From Fischerella sp. PCC 9431 (GTDB lineage Bacteria; Cyanobacteriota; Cyanobacteriia; Cyanobacteriales; Nostocaceae), in assembly GCF_000447295.1 (NCBI RefSeq), contig NZ_KE650771.1, positions 1,947,004 through 2,011,003 of the forward strand: a stretch of DNA of 64,000 nucleotides, written 5' to 3'. Positions 24,407 through 40,090 of this stretch are shown here, in pieces; the stretch's first letter is position 1; each line of letters starts with the position of its first letter. A program made the translations under genes and the position numbers. The notes under the pieces are model-generated. The model searched no databases, was not told the DNA's origin, and saw only the letters and a program-made list of their open reading frames with translations.

Positions 24407-24952
24407 ATGTACAACTTTGCTGCGGCTTGTGAAACTGAAACAATTGTATTTGGTTCTGCACGGCCTGGATACAGTAATGATCGAGTCAAGCAGTGGATTG
24501 AGTTTATGCAGAGTCAAAACATTAAACGTGTTTGCTGTTTGCTTCCTCAAACTCAGCTAACTCGTTATTCAAATTTACTTCAAGTCTATCGACAAAAATT
24601 TGGACTTGAGCAAGTTTGTTGGACACCGATCACAGATTTTCAACTGAGCGATCGCACAACCCTAACCCAGCAAATTTTACCCTTCTTAGCAGTTGCAAAT
24701 CAACGAAATGAGAAAGTAGTAGTTCATTGTTCTGGTGGAATTGGACGTACAGGACACATCTTAGCTGCTTGGTTAGTTAGTAAACGTGGGTTCTCAAATC
24801 AACAAGCGATCGCAGCAGTAAAACAAACTGGAAAAAATCCTTATGAAGCAGCAATTGCTGGTATCTTTAAAGGTCGAAATCCCTGGAAAGTTGTTGCGGA
24901 ACTAAACGCACTTTTAGATGATTGTCGTTATGCTGGAGAAACTTTAGTCTAG
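24407..24952 (+). CDS. Dual-specificity phosphatase family protein
   Basis: A 181-residue phosphatase taken from the ATG at 24407; the frame is open further upstream but overlaps the methyltransferase gene without homology. The Cys-based signature HCSGGIGRTG has its nucleophile at Cys108, with a WITDFQL-like general-acid Asp region before it. This is the tyrosine/dual-specificity class also found acting on phospholipids or nucleotides in cyanobacteria. Its substrate is unknown. It lies between the methyltransferase and HyuB genes. Confidence 0.82.
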   Translation: MYNFAAACETETIVFGSARPGYSNDRVKQWIEFMQSQNIKRVCCLLPQTQLTRYSNLLQVYRQKFGLEQVCWTPITDFQLSDRTTLTQQILPFLAVANQRNEKVVVHCSGGIGRTGHILAAWLVSKRGFSNQQAIAAVKQTGKNPYEAAIAGIFKGRNPWKVVAELNALLDDCRYAGETLV

Positions 24953-25027
24953 TTTGAGCCAGATAACCAACCCATACTCTACTCTCTCCATTCTCTGCGT
25001 CTCTGTGGTTTTTTCTAAATAAAATTT

Positions 25028-26578
25028 ATGTACAACACTACTCAACCCGACCCCGTTTCCCTTGAAATCTTCAAAAACCTCTATCAATTTATTGCAGAAC
25101 AAATGGGAATTGTTCTGCAAAACACAGCAGCATCAGTAAATATTAAAGAACGTCTAGATTTCTCCTGCGCTATTTTTGATGCTTCAGGATTACTAGTTGC
25201 TAATGCCCCTCATATTCCTGTACATTTAGGCTCAATGAGTGAAAGTATTCGTAGTTTAATTAATGATCAAAGCGACACTCTCAAACCAGGAAATGTGTAC
25301 TTATCCAATAATCCTTACAATGGCGGAACCCATCTCCCTGATGTCACAGCAATTACTCCTGTTTTTGATGAAAACGAAAAACAAATTATTTTCTATGTAG
25401 CTTCCCGTGGACACCAAGCCGATATCGGAGGAATTACTCCTGGTTCGATGCCTCCTCATAGTACCACAGTCGAAGAAGAAGGAATTATCTTTGATAATTT
25501 TCTCTTAGTTGAGCAAGGCAATTTTCGAGAAACTCAAGTACGAGAAATACTCTTAAGTCACCGCTATCCTGCTCGTAATCCTAACCAAAATATCGCTGAT
25601 TTTAAAGCACAAATAGCTGCCAATGAAAGAGGAGTACAAGAACTGCGGAAAATGGTTTCTCAATATGGACTCGAAACAGTCCAAGCTTATATGAAATTTG
25701 TTCAAGATAATGCCGAAGAATCAGTGAGAAGAGCAATTGATGTTCTCAAAGATGGCTCATTTATTTACGAAATGGATAATGGCGCACGCATTCAAGTAAA
25801 AGTCACAATCAACCAAGAAAAACGTAGCGCGACTATTGATTTTACAGGCACATCTGGACAATTAAATACTAACTTTAATGCTCCTAAAGCCGTCACCCAG
25901 GCAGCAGTTTTATATGTCTTTCGGACTCTCGTCGATGATAGCATACCCTTGAATGCTGGCTGTCTGAAACCACTAGAAATAATTATTCCTGCTGGCTGTA
26001 TGCTCAACCCAACCTATCCAGCAGCAGTAGTAGCTGGAAATGTAGAAACATCCCAAGCCATTGTCGATGCTTTGTATGGTGCTTTGGGTGTCATGGCTGC
26101 TTCTCAGGGAACGATGAATAATTTCACTTTTGGTAATGACCGCTATCAATATTATGAAACGATCTGCGGTGGTGCTGGCGCAGGGATTAATTTTGATGGT
26201 ACTGATGCAGTTCATACTCACATGACTAACTCCCGGTTGACCGATCCGGAAGTTTTAGAAACTCGCTATCCTGTTTTAGTAGAAAGCTTTAGTTTGCGTC
26301 CCGATAGCGGTGGTCAAGGAAAACACTCAGGTGGAGATGGCGTCATCCGTCGTATCAAATTTTTAGAATCGATGACAGCTAATATCCTCTCTGGACATCG
26401 AGTGATTCCTCCCTTTGGGTTAAATGGTGGAGAAGCAGGACAAGTAGGATGCAACTGGATACAACGTCAAGATGGAACCCAAGAGAATTTAGATAGCACA
26501 GCGACGGTGGAAATGGAACCAGGAGATGTTTTTATTATCGAAACCCCTGGTGGGGGAGGATTTGGGCAAAAAAGTTAA
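25028..26578 (+). CDS. hyuB: Hydantoinase/oxoprolinase subunit B (HyuB type)
   Basis: A 516-residue HyuB family protein. Conserved stretches include [45 protein letters not shown], the [18 protein letters not shown] region, and a Gly-rich end (TPGGGGFG). With the A subunit it forms an ATP-dependent ring-opening amidohydrolase (5-oxoprolinase, N-methylhydantoinase or related). The usual adjacent A-B arrangement is broken by a methyltransferase and a phosphatase gene. An upstream spacer of 75 bases keeps all four genes in one direction. Confidence 0.87.
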
Positions 26579-26663
26579 GAGTTAAAAATTAGATATATCT
26601 GCAAATGAGTATCAAAGTCTTGTACAGCAAAGTTTAAAACCTAATTGTTGGATCAGTCTATTA

Positions 26664-26760
26664 GGAGTTACCACCTGATCACCAACAGAAAATCTATTTG
26701 TATCCATTGCTGCTAATATGTGTGCATTGGTATTCGATTTTCAGGTCAAAAGGTAACTCC
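26664..26760. repeat. 97-bp sequence bounded by GGAGTTACC inverted repeats
   Basis: GGAGTTACC (26664-26672) and GGTAACTCC (26752-26760) are perfect inverted ends; just inside them CCTGA and TCAGG also match. The interior is non-coding. It may be a tiny palindromic element or a structured RNA leader or trailer in the 334-base spacer after hyuB. Confidence 0.5.
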
Positions 26761-26912
26761 AAATTCTTGAACCATAAACTAATTTATTAATTATTAGTAT
26801 TTATTTACATACTTCTGAGAATCTATTTCAGTTTGTAACTATTTGCCTATATCCTTATATATATTCCTTTAGACTGATCTAAAACAGAGAAAATTTTTCA
26901 GGATAAAGAAAA

Positions 26913-27233
26913 ATGCCTTCGGTAAACTTTATTTGTCATAATTTTTTTGTTGCTGTTTCTTTTGTAGCTTGTATTATTGGTTTGTTTTTACTGTGGGATA
27001 ACAAACAGCAAAAAGATGATGCAGATGCAACAGAGGTAATTTTATTTAGAATGACCTTTTGTTATTGGTTAGTTTACTGTGTTGCTTTTGGGATTGAAAA
27101 ATTAGTATTTCCTCACTGGGAAGCCATACATATGACTTTGAGGATTACAACAGCTTTGTCATATTTTTTAACATTCTCATGTATTATTAGTCTGCCTCTA
27201 CACAAGTTTGCAGTCCACCAAGTTGAGGAATAG
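26913..27233 (+). CDS. Small membrane protein of unknown function
   Basis: A 106-residue protein that I do not recognise. Three hydrophobic segments (about residues 10-28, 47-62 and 75-97) suggest a small polytopic inner-membrane protein; the loop between the first two is charged (DNKQQKDDADA). A CAGGA stretch 9 bases upstream of the ATG supports the start. It stands alone after a 334-base spacer and is followed by hairpin-rich non-coding DNA. Its presence beside the TetR-petD region may be chance. Confidence 0.55.
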   Translation: MPSVNFICHNFFVAVSFVACIIGLFLLWDNKQQKDDADATEVILFRMTFCYWLVYCVAFGIEKLVFPHWEAIHMTLRITTALSYFLTFSCIISLPLHKFAVHQVEE

Positions 27234-27288
27234 TGATTTGTCTCCCCGTAGACTAGAAGTCTGTTGCTCTAAAAATGAAGTCAGCTTT

Positions 27289-27383: not shown

Positions 27384-27517
27384 CAAAAATAGAGACTTGT
27401 AAAACATAATTACCTCGCACCCTTCAAAGGGTGAGAGGGAATACTTTGGTTTTTATACGCAGACTTACTTAACTATCTTGTTAAAAAATATCCGGATAAT
27501 GTATTGCGGCACTTATT

Positions 27518-28114
27518 TTACCTTGCTTTCATTCCATTAGTAACAAGTATGGAAGCAGCTTTGCGAGCAGATTCCAGCGCTGCAATACCAGCAGATTTAC
27601 CTTGCAAGTTTGCAATCATAGTACAGCCTCCAATTAAAAGTATCACATATTGTGTAAACTCTTGATAGTTATGAATTCTAGCTTCCTCACTCAATCTCAA
27701 CAGAAAGCTATAAGATGCAGTCATAGGTTCAATACAAAACTCGAGTGCTGGATGATTGGTACTCGCTAGTTCAGCAGCAGTAGTACTAAAAGGACATTTC
27801 TGAAAATCAGAATTACTAAACCACTCTTCCATGACATCAAAAATGGCAAGAAGTCGTTCTACCGGAGTTCCTTCACGTTTATTCATCGATTCTCTAAACC
27901 AATGTTGCCACTCTTCAGAGCGATAACGCATAACCTCCACAATTAGCTGATCTTTTGATGGGAAATACTTGTAGAGAGTCATTTTGGCAACTTCAGATGT
28001 AGCAGCTATCTCATTGACACCGACATTATGGACACCTTTACGATAAAAAAGATCCGCAGCAGTAATCAAAACTTTTTTCTTTAAATCGCTGGTCTTAAGA
28101 TTCATAAATTTCAA
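27518..28114 (-). CDS. TetR/AcrR family transcriptional regulator
   Basis: A 198-residue TetR-type repressor. The DNA-binding domain fills residues 8-60, with ITAADLFYRKGVHNVGVNEI, then helix-turn-helix SEVAKMTLYKYFPSKDQLI. The C-terminal ligand-binding domain is of the AcrR type and includes Cys residues (KCPFST), as in several stress or drug-sensing members. The start could also be the ATG at 28105. It is divergent from the orphan petD and lies next to an isonitrile cluster with an RND pump, so regulation of petD or of the cluster by its product is a reasonable inference. Confidence 0.87.
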   Translation of the reverse strand: MKFMNLKTSDLKKKVLITAADLFYRKGVHNVGVNEIAATSEVAKMTLYKYFPSKDQLIVEVMRYRSEEWQHWFRESMNKREGTPVERLLAIFDVMEEWFSNSDFQKCPFSTTAAELASTNHPALEFCIEPMTASYSFLLRLSEEARIHNYQEFTQYVILLIGGCTMIANLQGKSAGIAALESARKAASILVTNGMKAR

Positions 28115-28198
28115 CTATTTACTTATACTACAAAAATTAATTTTTGTTAACTAAAATATTAACTTGCATTTAGACAGACTTGTATGTATATTTATATT

Positions 28199-28236
28199 GA
28201 GGTAAAAACAAGCATATATGAGGTAAGAACAAGCAT
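28199..28236 (+). promoter_or_regulatory. Two direct repeats phased by 21 bp in the tetR-petD divergent spacer
   Basis: GAGGTAAAAACAAGCAT (28199-28215) and GAGGTAAGAACAAGCAT (28220-28236) match at 16 of 17 positions and start 21 bp apart, about two helical turns. The second copy also has a near-inverse just downstream (TTTTTCTTGCCT). This phasing on one face of the helix is what paired operator sites show. The binding protein is inferred, not known; the TetR protein is the obvious candidate. Confidence 0.5.
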
Positions 28237-28379
28237 GTTTTTCTTGCCTACGTTGTTGTTTGTCTTAACCATAATAGATTGCCGACTAATAATTTTAGTC
28301 AGCTAAATTTATGTAGCTAGTCATGGCAAACACATCCAGATTGAAAGTTTTCCTCTAACAGATTTAAACATTAGTAACT

Positions 28380-28865
28380 ATGGCAACAATATCCAAAAAG
28401 CCAGATTTGAGTGATCCAAAGCTACGCGCCAAGCTTGCTCAAGGACTTGGGCATAGCAGTTACGGTGAACCAGCTTGGCCAAATGAACTCCTCTACATGT
28501 TTCCAGTAACGATATTAGGAGCTTTTGCCTGTTGTGTAGCTTTAGCTGTATTAGATCCGGCGATGATGGGTGAACCAGCTAACCCCTTCGCTACGCCACT
28601 GGAAATTTTACCAGAGTGGTATTTGTATCCCGTCTTCCAGATTTTACGCGTAGTACCCAACAAGTTACTAGGAGTTGTAGCTATGGCTGCAATACCTTTA
28701 GGTCTAATGCTTGTTCCTTTCATTGAAAGCGTAAACAAGTTCCAGAATCCATTCCGTCGTCCAGTTGCAATATCTGTCTTCCTGTTTGGAGTGATTGTAG
28801 CTTTATGGCTTGGAATTGGTGCAACTTTTCCTATTGATAAGTCATTGACATTAGGCCTATTTTAG
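28380..28865 (+). CDS. petD: Orphan, divergent cytochrome b6f subunit IV (PetD)
   Basis: A 161-residue, full-length subunit IV with three membrane segments. The Qp-site motif PEWY is intact at residues 78-81, as are [29 protein letters not shown] and the end SLTLGLF. Petunia to cyanobacterial PetD is usually 160 residues; here one residue is added near the N-terminus. Compared with what I recall of cyanobacterial PetD it differs in SSYG for NYYG, LLYMFP for LLYVFP, RVVPNK for RSLPNK, and VIVALW. petB, normally directly upstream, is absent. It is probably an extra copy near an isonitrile cluster and a possible resistant target variant. Confidence 0.9.
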
Positions 28866-28879
28866 TTAATCAGTTCAAT

Positions 28880-29154
28880 AGTGACAAGTTAGCGCAAGTG
28901 TAGGCGGCAATTCTAAATTTAGGGCAACACAATCCTTTAAGATTGTAAAGTTCATAAACTTTCACTTTTTTTTGTACATTTCGGCTCTCTAGAACTAAGT
29001 TCTGAGACCACAAATGTCAAAAAAGTGATTGTTTGAGACTTTCACCGCAATTATCTGCAATAATTCTCATTTTTTCCATTTGTATCAACGTTAGAGTGTT
29101 ACAACAGTTCAAATTTAGAATTGCTGAAAATCTGTTTTTACTTAACTTGTCACT
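28880..29154. repeat. 275-bp inverted-repeat element (MITE-like) between petD and isnA
   Basis: The left end AGTGACAAGTTA (28880-28891) and the right end TAACTTGTCACT (29143-29154) are perfect inverses. Inside them GCAATTCTAAATTT (28907-28920) matches inversely at 29111-29124. A second nested pair (around CACTTTTTT...AAAAAAGTG) lies in the middle. There is no reading frame. It looks like a non-autonomous transposon or the ends of a decayed insertion sequence; AAT on both sides may be a 3-bp duplication. Confidence 0.7.
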
Positions 29155-30289
29155 AATGTTTCTATAATTTAAGCTGAAATGTGTAGGCAGCTTTGATTTG
29201 AATTGTCTTGTTTTATTTAAAGGTAAAAGTTGAAAGTTGTCTCATCTAGTCGAATACTAGATTAAGAAGAGAAGACACCGAAATTTTTCAAAGTCCGAAA
29301 TCAACTAACCTGATAGTAACATCCTAGAATATTTGTGTCAACCTCTGCGTTTCTTTGCGTTTAAAAATAAACTCAAACGTTATGCGAATGCTCACTCCAG
29401 GAAACTAATTTCATTGAAATACATTTTCAAGAATTACTGTTTGATTGAGTTCATCAAAATATCATTTTAAGAGATCTCGTTTTAAGAGATCGTACATGTT
29501 GGTAAATTGGTAATCACAACTGATACGAATGTGATTTTGATTTCTCTTTAACTTTTTCTTCTCCCAAACTTGAGTAGATATTTAGACCTACAGTATCCAT
29601 ATCGCATACTAGACAACCCAAACTCATCCCTTTATTATCCAAAGCCTAATAAACTTTAATTAATTATCTAGTCAAACCATCTGTACATTTTTAGTAATAG
29701 GTGTGCGATTTTAGATAATATTTTAGGCATTGAGTAATGGGGTGTAAAGAAGCGAGTATTTCAAAAAGATTTAGTTCCCTGTTCCCTATCTATACTAGCT
29801 ATTCAAGAATCAAATCGTATTGCGATAGACTGTTTTACTCAAGGGATGTTAACTTAAGTATTGGGTGTTAATAATGCTTTTTCATGACTCTACCTAGAGT
29901 ACAAAAACGAAAGAATCATTAGATCATACAAGAATAGAAAAGGCGAAGTTAGCTCAATTGGTTTATTTAGATTTATCTGCAAACAGAAGACGCTTGCAGA
30001 CAGCTGCCACAAATAAGAATGAGAAAATCTATAACGAGAAGTAGAATCTCAAGTGCCACACCATAACTGGGGCAGACAGCTTGTACAAAGTACAGAGAAA
30101 CCATTGAGCAAACGACCAACGGTCTAATGACTAACTGCTGCTGGAGAAGATTCCTCTAGCTGGTATTTCCAGGACATTGATTCAGAGCCTGGCTACAAAG
30201 CTTATATCAACACCAAATATCAGACAGCGCCTACCTAAGTAAAGTGTGGGCTAAAAATAGTAACGCTTGACAGTTTCATACAACTAGAT
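29155..30289. other. 1.1-kb spacer upstream of the isonitrile cluster
   Basis: I find no intact gene. CTCGTTTTAAGAGATC-type direct repeats (TTTTAAGAGATC twice) occur near 29465-29490. The segment 29940-30240 is less AT-rich than the rest and reads like decayed coding sequence in several frames, but I recognise no protein. TTGACA at 30267-30272 lies just before isnA without a matching -10. Confidence 0.4.
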
Positions 30290-31246
30290 GTGATCAAAAG
30301 TATGCATATATATTCCACGCCTGTTCAAATTCTTCATTGCGTGTTAAAGTATCGACGCCTTCTTCAAGAAAACGAGTCTAATCGGCTTCTCTACTTACCT
30401 TCCCACCTTCAGAAGATCCAGTTCTTCGTTGACAATAATAAACCAGTCCATTTCGTATTACCCGCCTTTCCAGCAAAATCGCCTAATCCGCAGAAAGTTC
30501 TTGGACCACTACCAGACATGGGAGAGAGATTATCACTCCAGTTTCTTCAATCTCTTTGTGATGAGATTGAAGGGATTTATCCACCTGGTGCAAGGATCAC
30601 AATTTGCTCAGATGGTCGTGTATTCAGCGACCTTGTTTGTGTAACCGACGAAAATGTCACGGCATACGGCGAGGAAATCAAACATATACTCAAGGACATC
30701 AATGCTACTTCGCTAGATGCATTTGGCATGGAGGATATTTTCAATTGTAATAGCTTTGCAGCAATGCGACAAAAGCTTGTCCAGGAATATGCTGCCTCTG
30801 TAGACGAAGTTCGCAACCTGATCAAGACTGAATTCAACCATAGATGCCTGTTCAACGGCATTCACCGCTTCTTATTTGAAGACTACTTGGTATTGCAACC
30901 TCATAAGACATCCAATAAAGTTCGCGCTGAGTGTAAAGAGATAGCATACCATGTAATTCAACGCAGCAATGCTTGGAGCAATCTGATAGCAGAACAGTTT
31001 CCCTATGCGATAAGGCTTTCTATACATCCTCAACCAAGAGACGCTGAGAAAATAGGCATTCATTTGATCAAAACTGATAATAATTGGGGTACACCTTGGC
31101 ATAATGTAGCAGTATATGATGGCACCGAATTTAGTTTGATGAAAAGAAGTAAGGCAGAAGAAATGAATGCCACGCTCGCTTATTATAAAGGTCGTCCTAG
31201 CCATTTCACACTTGCAAACACTACACAAAAAGGGTTAGTGATGTGA
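30290..31246 (+). CDS. isnA: Isonitrile (isocyanide) synthase, IsnA/PvcA/DIT1 family
   Basis: A 318-residue enzyme of the DIT1_PvcA family, which turns the alpha-amino group of tyrosine or tryptophan into an isonitrile using ribulose-5-phosphate carbon. Recognisable family blocks are FVLPAFPAKSPNPQKVLGPL, LPDMGERLSLQFL, the ITICSDGRVFSDLV segment, and the C-terminal YAIRLSIHPQPRDAEKIGIH and WGTPWHNVAVYDG. The GTG at 30290 or the ATG at 30302 could be the start; neither has a strong ribosome site. Its stop overlaps the start of the next gene by 4 bases, showing translational coupling with the oxygenase. Tyr versus Trp specificity cannot be told by eye. Confidence 0.92.
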   Translation: MIKSMHIYSTPVQILHCVLKYRRLLQENESNRLLYLPSHLQKIQFFVDNNKPVHFVLPAFPAKSPNPQKVLGPLPDMGERLSLQFLQSLCDEIEGIYPPGARITICSDGRVFSDLVCVTDENVTAYGEEIKHILKDINATSLDAFGMEDIFNCNSFAAMRQKLVQEYAASVDEVRNLIKTEFNHRCLFNGIHRFLFEDYLVLQPHKTSNKVRAECKEIAYHVIQRSNAWSNLIAEQFPYAIRLSIHPQPRDAEKIGIHLIKTDNNWGTPWHNVAVYDGTEFSLMKRSKAEEMNATLAYYKGRPSHFTLANTTQKGLVM

Positions 31247-32058
31247 CACTTAGCACTTATAATTTATCAAAGAGTATAAAATCAAAAGCTCTCAATCCTT
31301 TTGGTTTGCTCATTCAGGGCAATGGTTGCGATATTAGAGAAATTGAGGTTGCAGAAATTCGGCGACTAGCTTGGGAGTATCGCCTGATTGTCCTGCGTGG
31401 TTTCCAAAAACTTGATCGGCAGAATTTAACGGAATATTGTGCTAGCTGGGGAGATCTGCTACATTGGAATTTTGGTGTTATTTTCGATCTGGTTGTTCAC
31501 GAAAATGCTACTAACTACCTGTTGACCAGTGGTAGAGTTCCATTTCATTGGGATGGAGCATTCATAGAAACGGTTCCAAGCTTTGAGATTTTTCAATGTT
31601 TAAAAGCTCCAGTGCTTGGAACAGGTGGAGAAACTTTATTCTGCGACACAATCAAAGTTTGGGAAAATGCTACACCCAAGCAGCAAGAAGTTTGGAAAAA
31701 AATCGAAATTACCTACATCACTGAGAGTAACGCCGCTCACTATGGTGGAAAAATTACGGTTCCTTTAGTAAGTCAGCACCCTAAGACGGGAGTAACACGA
31801 CTTCGTTTTGGTGAACCCCTCGACCTAGAATATAATCACTTAACACGTCTTTCGATGGAAATTCAGGGGATACCTGCGTTGGAACACGAGGCATTTCTTA
31901 AAGAAATGCAACGCCTAATTTACAGTCCCCAAAACTGTATTGTTCACCAATGGCAGGATGGAGATCTAGTCATTGGTGACAATCATGCACTGCTGCACGC
32001 TCGCAATAAATTTTTAGCGACAACACCTCGGCACTTGCAGCGAGTGCATATCTTATAA
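31243..32058 (+). CDS. isnB: Fe(II)/2-oxoglutarate oxygenase, IsnB/PvcB type (TauD family)
   Basis: A 271-residue TauD-family oxygenase starting at a GTG inside the end of isnA. Iron ligands are the HxD pair His102/Asp104 (FHWDGAF) and probably His252 (LLHAR), with a later 2-oxoglutarate-binding Arg in LQRVHIL. Coupling to isnA is diagnostic: in PvcB and IsnB this enzyme acts on the isonitrile amino acid by oxidative decarboxylation and desaturation, giving a vinyl isonitrile or a retained-carboxylate variant. The WRLVVLRG-like N-terminal region is typical. Which outcome occurs here cannot be read from sequence. Confidence 0.9.
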   Translation: MTLSTYNLSKSIKSKALNPFGLLIQGNGCDIREIEVAEIRRLAWEYRLIVLRGFQKLDRQNLTEYCASWGDLLHWNFGVIFDLVVHENATNYLLTSGRVPFHWDGAFIETVPSFEIFQCLKAPVLGTGGETLFCDTIKVWENATPKQQEVWKKIEITYITESNAAHYGGKITVPLVSQHPKTGVTRLRFGEPLDLEYNHLTRLSMEIQGIPALEHEAFLKEMQRLIYSPQNCIVHQWQDGDLVIGDNHALLHARNKFLATTPRHLQRVHIL

Positions 32059-32225
32059 ATACCAAGTACGGCTGCATCTCTGTATCGACCTAAAATTGCT
32101 GATTTGAGGCAAAATATAGGTTTAAGGAAAGTTTTCTCTTAAAAGCTAACTTTTCTCAACTCTAACAGAATTGCATGACTATTGGTATGGACCCTTCATA
32201 TAAACATCAAAACAAGGACTAGCTT

Positions 32226-32639
32226 ATGTCATTAGACAAGTACAAAGAGCAAATTAAACAAGGTTTCCTACAATCTTTCAACAAAGGAGACTACAGCACC
32301 TTCGAGGATCTATTTGCTCCTGATGCAGTCAGTCTTGACCGTGCTAAACCTGTAGGAATAAAAGGACCTGAAGGAGCAAAACAGCTTGTCGAAAATTTCC
32401 GAAAAGCCTTTCCTGATATTCAGGTAGTCATAGAATCTCAGACAGCAGAAAGTGACAAGGTGATCACTCAGTGGAGTATGACTGGCACCCATAAAGGAGA
32501 TTTTTTAGGCAAAACACCAACGAATAAGCAAGTAAAACTGACAGCTTGCTCGGTAGATCGGCTGCAAAATGGCAAGATAATTGAATACACTACTTATCGC
32601 GATGATCTAGGTTTTATGCAGCAGATTGATGCTAACTAG
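32226..32639 (+). CDS. SnoaL-like/ester cyclase family small protein
   Basis: A 137-residue NTF2-fold protein. MSLDKYKEQIKQGFLQSFNKGDYSTFEDLFAPDAVS and the stretch FRKAFPDIQVVIESQTAESDKVITQWSMTGTHKG, here referred to by its ends only, follow the SnoaL/ester-cyclase pattern, with a cone-shaped pocket. In polyketide pathways SnoaL proteins close rings; others only bind or isomerise small substrates. Its position within the isonitrile cluster suggests it acts on, or protects, a pathway intermediate. It is separated by 167 bases from isnB and 186 bases from the flavoprotein, so it may have its own promoter. Confidence 0.8.
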   Translation: MSLDKYKEQIKQGFLQSFNKGDYSTFEDLFAPDAVSLDRAKPVGIKGPEGAKQLVENFRKAFPDIQVVIESQTAESDKVITQWSMTGTHKGDFLGKTPTNKQVKLTACSVDRLQNGKIIEYTTYRDDLGFMQQIDAN

Positions 32640-32825
32640 ATAAGAGCAAAATAAGACGTCTAAAAACAGTCAGAGTAAAAGTGTACACATATCAAGAACT
32701 CTTACTCTGACCTATTCTTTTCAATCAAGGTGGAATTATAAGTGTGTAGGCATGTAATGTTGTGGAAAGAGAAAAGAAAATGTTCATGCTCTACATTGAC
32801 ATTTAAGAGATGAGGAGTTACACAG

Positions 32826-34283
32826 ATGTCCTCTAATTATAAATTGGGTAAGCTAACCACCCCATTAGTTATTAACAGGTACACCTCAAATTCTACTCGA
32901 AACATTACTCTAGTTGGTGCTGGATTAACTGGGTGCCTTCTAGCTATTTATTTAGCAAAGCGTGGCTTTCATGTGGATATCTATGAGGGACGTCCTGATC
33001 TGAGAAAAACAAAGATCGGTGGTGGTCGCTCTATAAATCTGACTTTGGCAGCTAGGGGAATACAGGCATTAAAAGAAGTTGGCTTGTATGATCAAGTCAT
33101 GCAATTAACTATTCCTCTCAAGGGGAGGATTATTCATGCGCTCAATGGCAATCGAATATTCCAACCCTATGGTTACAACGATAGTGAAGTTCTCTATTCA
33201 TTACTGAGAAATGAGCTTAGTATACTCCTACTAAATGAATTAGAGAAATATAAAACAGTCCAGGTTTACTTCAATCAAAAATGTACAGGGGTAAGTTTTG
33301 AGCAAAGAGAACTTTACTTGCAGAACCAAACCACTAAGGAGCAGATCACAGTTAAAGTCAATCAAATAATTGGAACTGATGGTTCAGCTTCGGCTATCCG
33401 AGCAGCAATGCAGACAAAAGTAGGCTTTAATTTCTCACAAGCTTACCTTGATCATGGCTACAAAGAAATTACAATTCCTGCGTATCAAAGTAGCTTACCC
33501 GTTTTAGAGAGAAATGCTCTTCATGTCTGGCCACGCAAGCAGTATATGATCAATGGATTTCCCAATCAAGATGGGAGCATGACTTGCGTCTTATTTGCTC
33601 CTTTTGAAGGCGAAAATGGTTTAAATAATCTCAACTCAGAAAAGAAAGTACTTAACCTATTTCAAACTCAATTTCCAGATATTCTTTCATTTATTCCTGA
33701 CTTAGCACAAAGATACTTCTCCAGTAAAACAGGTCATTTAGTGACAATTAAGTGCCAGCCTTGGTATGTTGAAGATAAGGCTTTATTATTGGGGGATGCA
33801 GCCCATGCCATTGTGCCATTCCACGGACAGGGAATGAACTGTGCTTTTGAAGATTGTGCTTATTTGGACAAATGTATTGAAAAACATGGGACAGACTGGC
33901 AGTCTGTGTTTCAAGAATTTGAGCGATATCGAAAGGTCAATACCGATGCGATCGCTGACCTTTCCATTCAAAATTATCTTGAGTTGCGAGATCATGTTGC
34001 AGACTCCAGATTTTCACTAAAAAAGAAAGTTGAAGAAATACTTGCAGATAAGTACCCAGAGCAATTTATTCCCAGGTTCTCAATGGTATGTTTTCATCAA
34101 TTTCCCTACTCAATAGCTCAACATAGAGGAGCAATTCAGCAGAGTATTCTTGAAGAAATATGTCAAAACATTAACGATATTGAAGATATTAACTGGGAAA
34201 AAACAAATCGTCTCATCGAAGAGAAACTACCACAATTATGCCTACCCTTAGCACCACTGACTGGAACAAGCTCTGTAGCATAA
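32826..34283 (+). CDS. Kynurenine 3-monooxygenase-like FAD-dependent hydroxylase
   Basis: A 485-residue group A flavoprotein monooxygenase. The dinucleotide-binding motif VGAGLTG starts at residue 30, and the second FAD motif LLLGDAAHAIVPFHGQGMN contains Asp324 and the FHGQGMN loop typical of kynurenine 3-monooxygenase. Such enzymes hydroxylate aromatic rings ortho to an existing hydroxyl or amino group, using NAD(P)H and O2. In this cluster it should hydroxylate the aromatic ring of the isonitrile precursor or product. True kynurenine catabolism is unlikely because no other genes of that pathway are near. Its last 46 bases overlap the next gene. Confidence 0.85.
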   Translation: MSSNYKLGKLTTPLVINRYTSNSTRNITLVGAGLTGCLLAIYLAKRGFHVDIYEGRPDLRKTKIGGGRSINLTLAARGIQALKEVGLYDQVMQLTIPLKGRIIHALNGNRIFQPYGYNDSEVLYSLLRNELSILLLNELEKYKTVQVYFNQKCTGVSFEQRELYLQNQTTKEQITVKVNQIIGTDGSASAIRAAMQTKVGFNFSQAYLDHGYKEITIPAYQSSLPVLERNALHVWPRKQYMINGFPNQDGSMTCVLFAPFEGENGLNNLNSEKKVLNLFQTQFPDILSFIPDLAQRYFSSKTGHLVTIKCQPWYVEDKALLLGDAAHAIVPFHGQGMNCAFEDCAYLDKCIEKHGTDWQSVFQEFERYRKVNTDAIADLSIQNYLELRDHVADSRFSLKKKVEEILADKYPEQFIPRFSMVCFHQFPYSIAQHRGAIQQSILEEICQNINDIEDINWEKTNRLIEEKLPQLCLPLAPLTGTSSVA

Positions 34284-35278
34284 TGAATGGCTACATTTAC
34301 TCCATAGCATTAGCAACGGGATGCGAGCTAGACCTATTCACTTGGCTATCAAAACACCCAGGTTCTAACCAACAGCAAATTGCTGATGGACTGTCTTTAT
34401 CCCCTCATGCAACACGTGTGTTACTACTATCATGCTGTGCGGCACAGCTGATTGAACGAGATCCTGATACTCAAGGCTATTTCAACAGCGAACTTGCCAA
34501 TCACGTGCTAGTCTCAGATTCACCGTTGTCCATGCTCCCATTTATACAATTCAATCAACACGTTCAATTGCGAGGTTGTCTTCATTTCAGCACAGCTTTA
34601 CGCGAAGGCCGTAACGCTGGGCTAGATGAGTTTCCTGGAGCGGGTAAGACCTTGTACGAACGCCTCAGAGCATACCCACAAACAGAGCAACTATTTCAAG
34701 AAGGTATGGGTAACTATACCCGACTTTCCCCACAAATGATAGAGATACCTGAATTTGCTGGAGTAAAACACTTATTGGATGTGGGAGGTGGAGACGGAAC
34801 GAATGCTATTCGCCTTTGTCAACAATACCCATCTCTCAAAGTCACGATCTTAGAACTTCCCTCTGTCTGTACAATTGGCAAAAAAAATGTTGAAAGTTTG
34901 GGTTTGAGCAATCAAATCCATTATGTCGAAGCAGATATGTTTAAAGACCCCTGGCTCTTTGAGTGCGATGGTATTCTTATGTCGCATCTTGTAGAAATTC
35001 TTGCTGCAGAAAAAATTCTTTACTTGTACCGCAAGGCTTACGAAGTTCTACCAAAAAATGGTCTTCTTTTTGTCTGGACATTAATGGCAAATGATCTCGA
35101 AACGAGAGGGCTGCAAGCTGCAAAAGCCGCCATGTATTTATTTACAGTCGCCAGTGGCGAAGGAATGCCATGGCCAGCAGTAGAACACATTAGCTTACTC
35201 AAAAAGGCAGGATTTGATCACCTGATCCACCACGAAGCTCAAGAAATTGATCATGGAGCAATTGTTGCTAAAAAATAA
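34238..35278 (+). CDS. Acetylserotonin O-methyltransferase-like SAM methyltransferase
   Basis: A 346-residue methyltransferase of the plant-type O-methyltransferase (Methyltransf_2) family. It has an N-terminal dimerisation and winged-helix domain (about 1-110), then motif I LLDVGGGDGTNAIRL with Asp181, and a C-terminal GLLFVWTLM. The usual catalytic His in the HDW motif is replaced: the segment reads SHLVEILAAEKI. It may therefore use another base or transfer to a non-oxygen atom. It starts inside the flavoprotein gene (or, less likely, at the TAATG junction at 34283), showing tight coupling of hydroxylation and methylation. Confidence 0.83.
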   Translation: MPTLSTTDWNKLCSIMNGYIYSIALATGCELDLFTWLSKHPGSNQQQIADGLSLSPHATRVLLLSCCAAQLIERDPDTQGYFNSELANHVLVSDSPLSMLPFIQFNQHVQLRGCLHFSTALREGRNAGLDEFPGAGKTLYERLRAYPQTEQLFQEGMGNYTRLSPQMIEIPEFAGVKHLLDVGGGDGTNAIRLCQQYPSLKVTILELPSVCTIGKKNVESLGLSNQIHYVEADMFKDPWLFECDGILMSHLVEILAAEKILYLYRKAYEVLPKNGLLFVWTLMANDLETRGLQAAKAAMYLFTVASGEGMPWPAVEHISLLKKAGFDHLIHHEAQEIDHGAIVAKK

Positions 35279-35340
35279 ATACTTGAACAATAGAATTCAC
35301 ACTAAATAGTGAAACAACCTCTGAAATTACTTTAATTTAA

Positions 35341-35369
35341 CTAAAAACGGACGATCATAAGGTTTTTAG
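35341..35369. promoter_or_regulatory. Inverted repeat CTAAAAAC/GTTTTTAG upstream of the RND pump gene
   Basis: A perfect 8-bp inverted repeat with a 13-base spacer (35341-35348 and 35362-35369) lies in the 184-base gap between the methyltransferase and the efflux pump. It could be an operator or a weak terminator; the T-run further on (35384-35390) leaves both possibilities open. Confidence 0.4.
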
Positions 35370-35462
35370 TCGGTACGGCACTATTTTTTTCTGTCTGTTT
35401 GTACCAGGGTTACTAGCTAAAAATGCTAACTGTGAACAAGATTTGAGGTGTAAAACAAACGA

Positions 35463-38400
35463 ATGTTTGTTGATTTCTTTATTAGACGACCTGTCTTTGC
35501 TATCGTTTGTTCCCTAGTTATCGTTCTACTAGGCACAGTTAGCATTCCTACACTACCAATTGAGCAATATCCGGATATCAGTCCTGTCCAAATTGTTGTT
35601 TCTGCTAACTATATTGGAGCTAGCGCTGAAGTCGTAGAAGAGACGGTTACAAACGTTTTAGAACGGCAAATCAATGGTGTTGAAGGTATGAAGTATATGA
35701 CTTCAACCAGCGTCAATGATGGCGGTAGTACAATTAAAGTCATATTTAAACAGGGATATGACAAAGATAATGCTGTGGTAAATGTCCAGAATCGAGTCAA
35801 GATTGCTGAACCACAGTTGCCAGACACAGTGCAGCAAACTGGAGTATCTATCACCAAGCAGTCAAACAGTTCTGTTTTAGCAGTTGCTTTATATAGTGAA
35901 AATGACGTATATGATGATACTTTTTTAAGCAACTATGCAGATCTCTATATATTAGATATTCTTAAACGAGTAGAAGGGGTTGCCGACATTCGAGTTTATG
36001 GTGAACGTCGATATGCAATGCGTCTATGGCTAGATCCAAATCGACTGGCTAGCCGTGGTCTAACTGCTCAGGATGTTGTTGATGCGATCCAAAAACAGAA
36101 CTTACAATTGAGCGTAGGAAGGATTGGGCAACCGCCAGCATTTGATGGACAAAAGTATCAAATTGATATACTTGCACAAGGCAGGCTAAAAAAAGCAACA
36201 GAATTTGAGAACATTGTCCTCAAAAGAGGTTTAGATGGGACTTTGATCAAACTTAAGGATGTAGGTCGGGCTGAACTTGGTTCTGAAAATTATAGCTCGT
36301 TTGCACGATACAGTGGTCGCAACGCAGTAGCTTTTGAAGTGCTTCAACTTCCTGGCAGTAATGCTTTAAGTATTGCCAAGGAGGTGAAAGCTGAAATAGC
36401 GCAACTTGCTAAAAGTTTCCCATCAGGAATGAAATACGAGATTCCATATGACCCAACAATATTTGTAGTGGAATCCGGTAAGGAAGTGGTAAAGACTCTG
36501 TTGGAGTCTATTATACTGGTTATCATAGTAATTTTTATTTTCTTACAGAGCTGGCAAACAACTTTAATTCCAGCAATCACAATTCCAGTATCCCTCATTG
36601 GTACGTTTGCCTTTGTCAAAGTTTTTGGATTTTCCCTTAACAGTCTAACCTTGTTCGGGCTGACTTTGGCTACCGGCATGGTAGTTGATGACGCAATAGT
36701 CGTGGTCGAGAGTGTTACTACCTTAATCCAGACAAAAGGGATGAAGCCTCGTCATGCGACCTCAATAGCTATGGCTGAACTAACCGGGGCGTTGATTGCG
36801 ACTTCACTTGTACTTATGGCTGTGTTTATTCCAGTTGCTTTTTTCCCAGGCTCTGCTGGAATGCTTTACAAACAATTTGCCCTGACCATAGCTTTTTCTA
36901 TCGCAATTTCTACCTTTAATGCTCTAACTCTGACCCCTGCTCTGTCTGCTTTGTTGCTTCAAGGGCAACAACCCAAAGGCTGGCTTGGTTTGATATTTGA
37001 ACGGACTAACTTGATTTTTAATTTAATTCGAGAGGGATACCAGCGATTACTCTTACGGGCGACCCGCTTTAAAGAAATAGTTTTAGCGTTGTTTATCGCT
37101 TCATTAGGATTGACAAGCTGGCTTTACCTACATGTACCCACAGCATTTCTTCCTGACGAAGACCAAGGTTTTCTTATCAATCTTGTACAAGGACCAGAAG
37201 GAGCTTCATTAGAATACACGCGTCAAGTTTTCAATCAGGTTGATAAAGAAGTTCTGAAATTACCTGAAGTACAAGGTACTTTTTCTATGGGTGGCTCTAG
37301 TTTTAGTGGAAGTACTGCTAACAATGGCATTGCTTTTGTACCATTAAAATTTTGGAGCGAGCGAAAACAACCAGACCAGACAGCAAGTGCAATTCTTAAC
37401 AAGATTCGGGAACCACTCTCAAAAATAACAGATGCAAGAATAATTTCCATTAATCCTCCTACAATTCAGGGTTTAGCTAATGTTGGTGGATTTGTATTTC
37501 AATTGCAGGATCGAGGTAATAGCAGTTTAGACAGTCTGGTTAAAATTAGGGATGAATTGATTCAACGTGCTAATCAGCTACCCGAATTGCGAGGTGTATT
37601 TAGTACTTTTGCGGCCAACTCGCCTCAACTTTTGCTTGAAGTAGATCGAGATAAAGCCGAGGCTCTGCAAGTATCTGTAGATGATATTTTGAGTACATTA
37701 CAGATTTTTATAGGTTCACGATATGTAAACAATTTTAATGATTTTGGGCGAAATTATCGGGTTTATGTACAAGCAGACAAACAGTTTCGCTCTAATCCGG
37801 ATGATATTGGTAAGCTGTATGTTCGTTCTGCACAGGGTTCAATGATTCCATTGAGTAATCTCGTAAAGGTTACTTCCACTACTGGATCGCAAACGATTAA
37901 TCACTACAATATGTTCCGGTCAATTGAAATTAATGGTACGGCAGCTCCTGGTTTTTCCTCTGGACAAGCAATCCGAGCAATGGAGAAACTAGCCTCTGAG
38001 ATTCTACCAAGTAATATAGGTTATGAATGGTCAGGTATTTCTCTAGAAGAACTAAGTTCGACTAATCAAGCACCATTCATCTTTGGTTTGGGAATCATTT
38101 TTGTCTTTTTGGTTCTTGCTGCTCAATATAATAACTTCGTTGACCCCCTGATCCTACTTCTAGCTGTTCCCCTAGCTATTTTAGGAGCGCTATTAGCTCA
38201 GTCACTTCGTGGTTTATCGAACGATATATATTGTCAGGTGGGTTTAGTAATGCTGATTGGTTTAGCAAGCAAAAATGCCATTCTAATTGTGGAATTTGCC
38301 AATCAACTGCATGATCAAGGTCTTTCGCTTTATAAGTCAGTAATTGAAGCGGCGCAGCAACGCTTGCGACCCATTATTATGACTGCTCTTTCTACTCTTC

Positions 38401-38585
38401 TAGGGATTTACCCACTAGCAATTGCTGAAGGAGCAGGGGCCATTAGCCGACAATCTCTTGGGACAGCTGTCTTTGGCGGTATGCTTGTCGCTACTTTCTT
38501 AAGTCTGTTTGTAATACCAGTCTTATACATCGTCATTAAGACACTATATAAGGTATTACGTCGAGAACTCGTGAAAAGGGATTAA
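35463..38585 (+). CDS. RND-family multidrug efflux permease (HAE1/AcrB type)
   Basis: A 1040-residue inner-membrane RND pump with the standard duplicated layout: the N-terminal helix FFIRRPVFAIVCSLVIVLLG, porter domains, and two six-helix bundles (about 340-540 and 870-1030). The proton-relay acidic pair is Asp409/Asp410 in GMVVDDAIVVVES. The GLASKNAILIVEFAN and PLAILGALLA motifs are intact. It should export amphiphilic compounds with the fusion protein encoded next. Placement directly after the isonitrile genes suggests export of, or resistance to, their product. No TolC-type outer-membrane gene is in the window. Confidence 0.93.
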   Translation: MFVDFFIRRPVFAIVCSLVIVLLGTVSIPTLPIEQYPDISPVQIVVSANYIGASAEVVEETVTNVLERQINGVEGMKYMTSTSVNDGGSTIKVIFKQGYDKDNAVVNVQNRVKIAEPQLPDTVQQTGVSITKQSNSSVLAVALYSENDVYDDTFLSNYADLYILDILKRVEGVADIRVYGERRYAMRLWLDPNRLASRGLTAQDVVDAIQKQNLQLSVGRIGQPPAFDGQKYQIDILAQGRLKKATEFENIVLKRGLDGTLIKLKDVGRAELGSENYSSFARYSGRNAVAFEVLQLPGSNALSIAKEVKAEIAQLAKSFPSGMKYEIPYDPTIFVVESGKEVVKTLLESIILVIIVIFIFLQSWQTTLIPAITIPVSLIGTFAFVKVFGFSLNSLTLFGLTLATGMVVDDAIVVVESVTTLIQTKGMKPRHATSIAMAELTGALIATSLVLMAVFIPVAFFPGSAGMLYKQFALTIAFSIAISTFNALTLTPALSALLLQGQQPKGWLGLIFERTNLIFNLIREGYQRLLLRATRFKEIVLALFIASLGLTSWLYLHVPTAFLPDEDQGFLINLVQGPEGASLEYTRQVFNQVDKEVLKLPEVQGTFSMGGSSFSGSTANNGIAFVPLKFWSERKQPDQTASAILNKIREPLSKITDARIISINPPTIQGLANVGGFVFQLQDRGNSSLDSLVKIRDELIQRANQLPELRGVFSTFAANSPQLLLEVDRDKAEALQVSVDDILSTLQIFIGSRYVNNFNDFGRNYRVYVQADKQFRSNPDDIGKLYVRSAQGSMIPLSNLVKVTSTTGSQTINHYNMFRSIEINGTAAPGFSSGQAIRAMEKLASEILPSNIGYEWSGISLEELSSTNQAPFIFGLGIIFVFLVLAAQYNNFVDPLILLLAVPLAILGALLAQSLRGLSNDIYCQVGLVMLIGLASKNAILIVEFANQLHDQGLSLYKSVIEAAQQRLRPIIMTALSTLLGIYPLAIAEGAGAISRQSLGTAVFGGMLVATFLSLFVIPVLYIVIKTLYKVLRRELVKRD

Positions 38586-38761
38586 CCCTAAAAAATCAGT
38601 ATAGTTGTTAAGAAACTAGTTATTAAATAACTTTAAATCAGACACAGCAAGCATTTGAGTGATTTTTTAGGTTATTTTTCAACAAGTCTAGTAATTTCAA
38701 TATCACTTATCTTTGTTCCTGTTCCACGCATCGTTAATTTTGTTTTTAGTCTCTGCTAATC

Positions 38762-40090
38762 ATGACCACCCCGCAGCCTGACACTCAAGTTGAAAATTAT
38801 TCTCCACAGACAGACAGCCAGCCACCTCGTAAACAAAGCCGGTGGCTTTGGTTATTGTTGGCTCTAGTAGTCCTGACAGGAGGAGGAATCACTGTTTGGC
38901 GTGTGTTTGCTTCAGAAAATCAAACACCTGCAAATGCCGGTGCAAATGCTCAACCCCCAGCAATACCAGTGAAAGTATCTGCGGTTGAATCAGGCACAAT
39001 TGAAGAAAGTTCAGAATACATCGCGAGTATCGAATCGCGTCGTTCAGTAGCTCTGCAACCAAGAATCCAAGGTCAAGTGACTCAAATATTTGTCAGAGCA
39101 GGAGATCAACTCAAACAGGGAGATCCAATCATTCAAGTAGACTCAAGAGAGCAACAAGCAGCAGTCAGTGGTGTAAATGCTGCTGCACAGGCGGCGCGAT
39201 CGCAAGTAGAAAATACCAAAGCGACTCTGAGATCCTTAGAAGCAGACAGACAATCGTTTCTTGCAGATGTGAAGTTAAACCAGCAAGATTACGCTCGCTA
39301 TAGCGACCTTGCCAATCAAGGAGCCGTATCCCAACAAACAAAAGAACAGTATGCCAATAAACTAGCTGTAGCCCAAGCCGCTCTGAATGCGAATGAATCC
39401 AAAATCAAAGCGCAACAAGCCGCAGTCGCCGAAGCGGAAAAATCTTTACAGCAAGCTTTAGCTAATACCAATCAACAACAAGTACAACTCCAGTACTACA
39501 AAGTCACCGCTCCGTTTGCAGGTACTGTCGGCGATATCCCGGTAAAACTTGGTGATTTCGTCAACACCTCCACACAGCTAGCGACTATTACTCAAAATCG
39601 ACCATTAGAAATAAATATATCTGTACCAGTAGAACGTGCATCTCAATTGCGTAATGGGATGCTAGTAGAACTGATTAATGCTCAAGGTCAGACTATTGGT
39701 ACTAGTCGGGTATTTTTTATCTCTCCGAAAGCGAATAACGAAAATCGCATGATTCAAATCAAAGCTCTGTATGACAATCAGAACAATCAGCTTAGAGCAG
39801 ATGAATATATCCGAGCAAGAGTCATATTTAGTCAACGCTCAGGAGTAGTTATCCCCACATCAGCAGTAGCTCGCATCGCTGGACAAAACTTTGTCTTTGT
39901 TGAGCAAACCCAAAGATCACCCCAAGGTAAGTCCCAACTGGTGGCAAAACAAAAGCGCGTTAAGTTAGGCAATATCGCAGGTAATAACTATCAAGTATTA
40001 GAAGGATTACAACCAGGAGACAAAATTATCGTTTCGGGACTACTCAACCTTCAAGATGGAGCTCCCATTAATCCATCATCTCAAGAATAG
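38762..40090 (+). CDS. RND periplasmic adaptor (membrane fusion protein, AcrA/HlyD type)
   Basis: A 442-residue adaptor with one N-terminal membrane helix (WLWLLLALVVLTGGGITVW, about residues 28-48). A lipoyl/barrel-sandwich half follows (ALQPRIQGQVTQIFVRAGDQ), then a long coiled coil (about 120-245), the second lipoyl half (YKVTAPFAGTVGDIPVKLGD), and beta-barrel and membrane-proximal domains. It bridges the RND pump to an outer-membrane channel. Here it follows the pump gene, the reverse of the usual adaptor-then-pump order. The N-terminal anchor is a membrane helix, not a lipobox. Confidence 0.92.
   Translation: MTTPQPDTQVENYSPQTDSQPPRKQSRWLWLLLALVVLTGGGITVWRVFASENQTPANAGANAQPPAIPVKVSAVESGTIEESSEYIASIESRRSVALQPRIQGQVTQIFVRAGDQLKQGDPIIQVDSREQQAAVSGVNAAAQAARSQVENTKATLRSLEADRQSFLADVKLNQQDYARYSDLANQGAVSQQTKEQYANKLAVAQAALNANESKIKAQQAAVAEAEKSLQQALANTNQQQVQLQYYKVTAPFAGTVGDIPVKLGDFVNTSTQLATITQNRPLEINISVPVERASQLRNGMLVELINAQGQTIGTSRVFFISPKANNENRMIQIKALYDNQNNQLRADEYIRARVIFSQRSGVVIPTSAVARIAGQNFVFVEQTQRSPQGKSQLVAKQKRVKLGNIAGNNYQVLEGLQPGDKIIVSGLLNLQDGAPINPSSQE

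Follow-up and report, generated by a model that had tools for sequence, protein, structure and literature searches.

The stretch of DNA analysed here (64,000 nucleotides, called the window) spans contig positions 1947004-2011003 of Fischerella sp. PCC 9431, a cyanobacterium with a genome of 7,167,426 bases in 8 contigs (handle G000). It contains an isonitrile biosynthetic operon next to an extra copy of petD, the gene for subunit IV of the photosynthetic cytochrome b6f complex. This copy, petD2 (28380-28865, plus strand), is a complete gene with an ATG start that scores 308 bits against TIGR01156 (cut-off 127). A gene for a TetR-family regulator (27518-28114, minus strand; TetR_N 50 bits) is transcribed divergently from it, and the intergenic region between the two (28115-28379) holds an operator-like site at 28171-28189. 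Beyond a second intergenic stretch (28866-30289), the plus strand carries isnA (30290-31246), encoding an isonitrile synthase of the PvcA/IsnA family, and isnB (31243-32058), encoding an iron/2-oxoglutarate oxygenase of the PvcB/IsnB family; both start with GTG and they overlap by 4 bases (31243-31246). These are followed by genes for a SnoaL-like small protein (32226-32639; PF07366 111 bits), a flavin hydroxylase of the kynurenine 3-monooxygenase (KMO) type (32826-34283), a SibL-like methyltransferase that is probably ring C-methylating (34238-35278; overlapping the hydroxylase gene by 46 bases), an RND efflux permease (35463-38585) and an RND adaptor (38762-40090). E-values of the gene-family matches in the window are far beyond chance.

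An earlier description made from the letters alone (the sequence-only reading) had given the same order and strand from isnA onward, including the 4-base overlap and the overlapping methyltransferase gene, and all of this was borne out. The interval that it gave opens at 28380 on the start codon, ATG, of petD2, a gene that it left unnamed. No listed open reading frame (ORF) of at least 60 aa starts inside the 1.4 kb between petD2 and isnA, and a decayed gene or coxB remnant in this gap was rejected (best tblastn E 0.88). Searches of the 64-kb window for tRNAs and for Rfam families at gathering score were both negative.

A constrained second PetD in a shared block

PetD2 is 80% identical to the housekeeping PetD, which is encoded in a normal petB-petD operon elsewhere in the genome. 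The same block occurs in a second genome, that of F. muscicola (SAG 1427-1 = PCC 73103; handle G002), where petD2 is likewise intact. Between the two strains, petD2 has accumulated 45 synonymous and 7 other changes (ratio of nonsynonymous to synonymous substitution rates, dN/dS, of 0.036). PetD2 is under strong purifying selection and is expected to be functional.

The common block covers window positions 27476-38701: its left edge lies 42 bases past the TetR stop, and its right edge is the end of the F. muscicola contig. TetR-petD is 85% identical between the two genomes (the TetR protein 82%) and the part from isnA to the RND permease 95%, with positions 28897-29935 between them only partly alike. 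On the left, window positions 24501-27242 have 90-95% matches elsewhere in the three congeners (G001-G003), on a different contig in the case of F. muscicola, which carries ParA-like genes upstream of TetR. With left flanks that differ and a block that is common, TetR-petD belongs to the shared unit, which occupies a different site in each genome. Beyond the isn-to-RND genes named in the sequence-only reading, the conserved block also includes TetR-petD. Neither G001 nor G003 offers a simple empty site, as the left flank, the adaptor and the right flank lie at separate places there.

PetD2 differs from other PetDs at positions that are otherwise fixed. We compared it with 43 distinct cyanobacterial PetDs (47 rows, being best hits and not a random sample; several loci overlap as fetched, hence identical rows recur). 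The plastid-like row L099 was removed from a first version of 48 rows and 44 distinct sequences, and L098, L078, L081, L087, L088, L092 and L093 were left out. Six of the 94 invariant sites are changed in PetD2 of both strains: M22L, N25S, Y26S, D35E, T137V/L and T140A. A leave-one-out comparison gave at most one such change for any of the 43 PetDs, and five for the plastid-like row. N25S and D35E lie on the quinone-reduction (Qn, haem c_n) side, and the Qp loop (PEWY) of PetD2 is unchanged. Asn25 and Asp35 are present in all five solved PetDs that were printed, of six. Asp35 has been suggested as proton donor of the Qi site (PMC13287000), and Phe40 is described as the residue nearest to the haem c_n iron (PMC12112970) and as capping haem c_n (PMC9342900).

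The extra PetDs share D35E and a one-residue N-terminal insertion. In a tree with 31 housekeeping PetDs (fetched locus L042 left out), the three of them group together with support of 92/79; a branch separates them from the others in 90% of 200 bootstrap trees, the bootstrap being not fully settled.

Two features of the regulator were set aside as evidence. Aligning the three TetR-petD intergenic regions reveals the operator-like motif, and the search pattern was taken from those very sites. Genome-wide it gave 2 exact matches and, with at most one mismatch, 21 matches versus 20 for the reversed control; in the window, with at most two mismatches, 2 matches compare with 3.69 expected. We therefore reject the motif as firm evidence, given a pattern derived from its own sites and no excess over the control. 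The TetRs near petD2, near petD3 (the third petD of this genome, see below) and at the isn locus of genome G169 are 43-47% similar, which we do not take as a special link, as other cyanobacterial plasmids also encode relatives at 42-43%.

Rarity of the extra petD and a second biosynthetic neighbourhood

Second copies of petD are rare. Among 59 relatives, 58 have petD, and extra matches occur in Fischerella sp. PCC 9431 (three copies), in F. muscicola (two) and in G039, whose second match spans 30 positions and falls under the cut-off. At the family level petD was found in 216 of 217 genomes, with extra matches in the same two Fischerella genomes and in G238. We rejected G238 as a third case, as its 77 kb contig (C286; L099/L116) reads as plastid DNA: an RNA-polymerase-alpha C-terminal frame, petD and an incomplete petB stand in what we take to be plastid gene order. 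This leaves 2 of the 217 family genomes with an extra full-length bacterial petD, the same two that carry this branch of isnA. In a phylum-wide sample, 202 of 386 genomes match the extra-PetD profile, 184 of them strongly and 18 weakly. Of the 184, Fischerella sp. PCC 9431 alone has more than one full-length copy (three), the second piece in G368 covering 58 positions and falling under the cut-off. Plasmids and phages were rejected as carriers: the matches on 21 plasmid records all have less than 60% identity, and no phage matched.

The third copy, petD3 (C1:6243478-6243954), is divergent from a gene for a TetR 43% identical to that of the window and sits between genes for a fatty-acyl-AMP ligase-like protein and a flavin adenine dinucleotide (FAD) oxidase. 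Next to this region are genes for a lysine/ornithine N-hydroxylase, a class III aminotransferase, a cupin and a methionyl-tRNA synthetase (MetRS)-like protein, and both sides are flanked by genes for nonribosomal peptide synthetases (NRPS) and ketoreductase-bearing megasynthases (C1 6218000-6271000; L072, L008, L073). A known system that forms N-N bonds is encoded by the same set of N-hydroxylase, cupin and MetRS-like protein (PMC8664883). The petD3 cluster is of the NRPS/polyketide synthase type with hydrazine-type genes, and is unrelated to the one in the window. The full 13.3 kb hydrazine-type stretch was found only in Fischerella sp. PCC 9431 among the matches listed, with two candidates per genome scored, which weakly suggests that the cluster is absent from other genomes. 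A fragment of coxB (cytochrome oxidase subunit II, COX2_TM) also lies beside petD3.

The isonitrile synthase pair

IsnA of the window matches PF05141 at 280 bits (cut-off 26.4) and PvcA (3e59) at 261 bits, which identifies it as a PvcA-family isonitrile synthase; with the tyrosine-specific model NF045653 it reaches 299 bits, below the cut-off of 600. The genome has three PF05141 genes, this one and a pair at 6.336-6.338 Mb. Neighbours of the pair encode tryptophan synthase alpha, indole-3-glycerol-phosphate synthase, anthranilate synthase and 3-deoxy-D-arabino-heptulosonate 7-phosphate (DAHP) synthase. The same cluster (~6.33 Mb; C1 6325000-6344999) also holds genes for GcpE, 1-deoxy-D-xylulose 5-phosphate (DXP) synthase, an Orf2-type aromatic prenyltransferase, IsnB and DXP reductoisomerase. 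Indole-isonitrile and geranyl-pyrophosphate genes of such kinds are reported for hapalindole-type clusters (PMC4236562), and the cluster at ~6.33 Mb is, by its gene content, of the hapalindole type. A transposase in two frames (HTH, DDE_3) lies there between isnA and the DXP reductoisomerase gene.

The window IsnA is 95% identical to that of F. muscicola, 63% to that of a Prochloraceae metagenome-assembled genome (MAG) and 50-59% to the hapalindole-type copies. PF05141 is present in 14 of the 217 family genomes, 13 of which entered the IsnA tree (G113, with a match of 50 positions only, was omitted); the window and F. muscicola copies form their own branch with support of 98/100. IsnB scores 139 bits against TauD, 187 against 7tcl and 178 against PvcB (3eat). 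According to a published residue rule, PIsnB-type enzymes have Lys/Arg and Asn/His at two diagnostic positions and PvcB-type enzymes Leu and Cys (PMC9467999). Aligned with solved relatives, the window enzyme has Ile and Gly, matching neither published product type, and a forecast of vinyl isonitrile versus isocyanoacrylate from this rule was set aside as uninformative.

Other isn loci vary in arrangement. Single ORFs of 623-632 aa, IsnA in the first half and IsnB in the second, occur in genera g30 and g19 (genomes G032, G105-G108, G110 and G081). In G169 (L074 5143-13467), isnA-isnB is followed by rhodanese, fatty-acid desaturase and tryptophan-halogenase-like genes, a possible isothiocyanate pathway; upstream are exporter-like genes and a TetR gene whose product is 47% identical to the window TetR. 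In G024 (L029 9519-12873), a cytochrome P450 gene follows isnA-isnB. The pair in the Prochloraceae MAG (L026 9956-11811), whose isnA is the closest outside relative of that in the window, lies amid genes that appear phage-like by eye.

Tailoring enzymes and export

That the flavoprotein is a KMO-like hydroxylase, as first read from the letters, agrees with its ten top solved relatives, all of which are KMOs (best 6lkd, 319 bits). It matches FAD_binding_3 at 70 bits and is 39.8% identical to rat KMO across 400 aligned residues; its top NCBIfam model, VioC, gives 205 bits, far below the cut-off of 760. In rat numbering, with an offset of 2 assumed, it keeps Arg85, Tyr99 and Asn363, of which we take Arg85 and Tyr99 to bind the substrate carboxylate, and Tyr398 is replaced by Phe. 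Its gene differs from that of F. muscicola by a synonymous divergence (dS) of 0.016, far under that of neighbouring genes, as if it had been exchanged recently between the strains.

The methyltransferase (Methyltransf_2 83 bits) has SibL (4qvg) as its top solved relative, with 148 bits versus 96 for the runner-up and 31% identity. SibL is an aromatic C-methyltransferase whose catalytic and binding residues have been assigned (PMC4426599). The catalytic base Tyr134 of SibL is kept (Tyr140 in the window enzyme), as is Tyr295; Asp132 is replaced by Thr, and Glu-Ile stands at the positions of His-Asp in the O-methyltransferase ASMT. With Tyr134 kept and Glu-Ile in place of His-Asp, the enzyme is more likely to methylate a hydroxylated aromatic at a ring carbon than at oxygen. 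The 3-hydroxykynurenine-binding residues Tyr99, Tyr288 and Asp292 of SibL have become Phe, Gln and Ala, which makes 3-hydroxykynurenine an improbable substrate. None of the 4 genomes G000-G003 yielded a tryptophan 2,3-dioxygenase (IDO-type enzymes and kynureninase were not searched for), and kynurenine was set aside as the default substrate.

The cluster had also been credited with its own export pump. The RND permease (TIGR00915 1324 bits) fits this claim, as it lies in the shared block with 95.6% protein identity in F. muscicola. The adaptor (TIGR01730 198 bits) does not: copies 88-90% identical at the DNA level adjoin another RND pump, 69% identical to the window pump, in the congeners G001 and G003, where the window isn operon was not found and no flavoprotein or methyltransferase was among the matches listed. 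The adaptor is not cluster-specific; as one part of the pump it occurs independently of isnA in relatives, which counts in part against the sequence-only reading. In F. muscicola, just 41 bases of the adaptor region are visible, at the contig end.

A proposed copied target as self-resistance

We consider it about evenly balanced (a probability of roughly 0.5) that the window encodes a new isonitrile pathway in which a TetR-linked copied target confers self-resistance against an inhibitor of cytochrome b6f. In such a pathway, IsnA would make an isonitrile acid from tyrosine or tryptophan. The ring would be hydroxylated by the KMO-type enzyme and C-methylated by the SibL-like enzyme, and IsnB would desaturate or decarboxylate the side chain. 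The RND pump would export the aromatic isonitrile product, which would inhibit cytochrome b6f, most likely at the Qn side, and TetR-linked PetD2 would replace the housekeeping PetD to give a less sensitive b6f complex. We favour self-resistance because of a constrained, cluster-bound, TetR-linked second b6f subunit, taken together with what is described for isonitriles: they act as ligands of haem iron (PMC10475101), and one natural aromatic isocyanide is reported to bind the cytochromes of mitochondria and to disturb electron transport there (PMC12028611). Also in its favour are the place of TetR-petD inside the shared block, the rarity of extra petD and its match with this isnA branch, the further TetR-petD pair in another biosynthetic cluster, and the PetD2 changes at otherwise invariant sites.

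Several observations weigh against this proposal. The 1.4 kb gap separates petD2 from isnA, and the TetR-petD cassette has its own history: its dS values versus F. muscicola (petD2 0.54, TetR 0.31) are above the 0.18 of the housekeeping petD and the range of 0.016-0.205 in the operon. PetD2 changes are only weakly concentrated near the Qn side, with 4 of 6 falling in residues 20-47, which contain 22 of the 94 invariant sites (P 0.025, with the region chosen afterwards). Chlamydomonas PetD (1q90) has Thr26, Ala140 occurs in two solved PetDs (1q90 and 7r0w), and D35E is the sole Qn-side change that PetD3 has in common with PetD2. The TetR subfamily is common. Twelve of the 14 family genomes with isn genes have no extra petD, and the two genomes that have one are congeneric, so that the association of petD with isn may be one event. 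Finally, no isonitrile gene lies near petD3, so that petD is not tied to isonitriles as a general rule.

The main rival is that the isonitrile cluster is real but TetR-petD is a separate cassette for stress or resistance, which came to lie beside biosynthetic clusters and has nothing to do with this product, acting for example in defence against quinone-site inhibitors made by others or in the tuning of electron flow. We hold this to be possible, if somewhat unlikely. The divergence of the cassette is unlike that of the operon, the petD-isnA gap is long and poorly conserved, a paralogous TetR-petD lies in an unrelated cluster, and the coxB fragment by petD3 hints at a wider electron-transport theme. 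However, a free-standing version should turn up elsewhere, and in the genomes searched the extra petD occurs only in the two Fischerella strains, all three copies in or beside biosynthetic clusters.

Two further explanations concern the product. A metal-binding isonitrile (metallophore- or chalkophore-like) with protection by export alone would make petD2 a bystander; this suits the RND permease within the conserved block and the description of isonitriles as potent and common iron ligands (PMC9467999), but leaves a constrained extra petD in the same block unexplained, and we consider it quite improbable. We judge it equally hard to credit that the KMO-type and SibL-like enzymes act on kynurenine to give an isonitrile derived from 3-hydroxy-4-methyl-kynurenine. 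Their closest solved relatives presumably act in succession in sibiromycin biosynthesis, the place of KMO there being our assumption (for the role of SibL, see PMC4426599), and the retained Arg85, Tyr99 and Asn363 of the flavoprotein would fit this route. Against it stand the missing tryptophan 2,3-dioxygenase (0 of the 4 genomes) and the loss of the residues that hold the amino-acid tail (Tyr288 and Asp292 in SibL), as well as the change to Phe of Tyr99 in SibL and of Tyr398 in the KMO-type enzyme.

The proposal of a copied target can be carried one step further, to a form that we regard as unlikely. The hydroxylated, C-methylated aryl isonitrile would mimic the plastoquinone head group in the Qn site, with the isonitrile carbon as ligand to the haem c_n iron (cytochrome bc1 has no such haem). 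The wall of this site would be rebuilt in PetD2 by M22L, N25S, Y26S and D35E and in PetD3 by D35E, and TetR would switch the cell to the resistant subunit. If so, finding petD in a biosynthetic cluster would flag a natural inhibitor of photosynthetic electron transport.

Comparison with known systems

The cluster shares IsnA and IsnB, and a Fischerella-type host, with the hapalindole, ambiguine and welwitindolinone clusters (hpi, amb, wel). It differs from them in having one isnA instead of two (50-59% identical), in its KMO-type and SibL-like enzymes and petD, and in that its proteins match no prenyltransferase, tryptophan or methylerythritol phosphate (MEP)-pathway family; Stig cyclases were not searched by model. 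We therefore reject a hapalindole-type identity, in agreement with the sequence-only reading: the hallmark genes missing here are present at ~6.33 Mb. The paerucumarin (pvcABCD) and rhabduscin-type (isnAB) systems likewise have PvcA/PvcB homologues, and here too a flavoprotein may hydroxylate the ring. PvcC, however, is of another flavoprotein class than the KMO type, and the Ile/Gly pair sets the window IsnB apart. As in the sibiromycin-type pair, KMO and SibL enzyme types are successive, here with overlapping genes; unlike in that pair, tryptophan dioxygenase is lacking from the genome, the kynurenine-tail residues are changed and the enzymes are coupled to isnAB.

Isonitrile synthase clusters are already known, and the aspect that seems new is a copy of a photosynthetic electron-transport subunit within one. 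The open-licence PMC literature, as far as searched, yielded no description of the operon or of petD in a biosynthetic cluster, and no cluster with a copy of such a subunit. If our proposal is true, DNA alone would predict the molecular target of a compound and point to a natural cytochrome b6f inhibitor; petD would then be a marker for genome mining, and two unrelated clusters of one genome carry it already. Self-resistance by a copied target is a known principle, and the window has in common with it a divergent second housekeeping copy in a conserved block beside a regulator, with the normal copy elsewhere. The target here would be a membrane subunit of photosynthetic cytochrome b6f, for which the literature searched gave no parallel.

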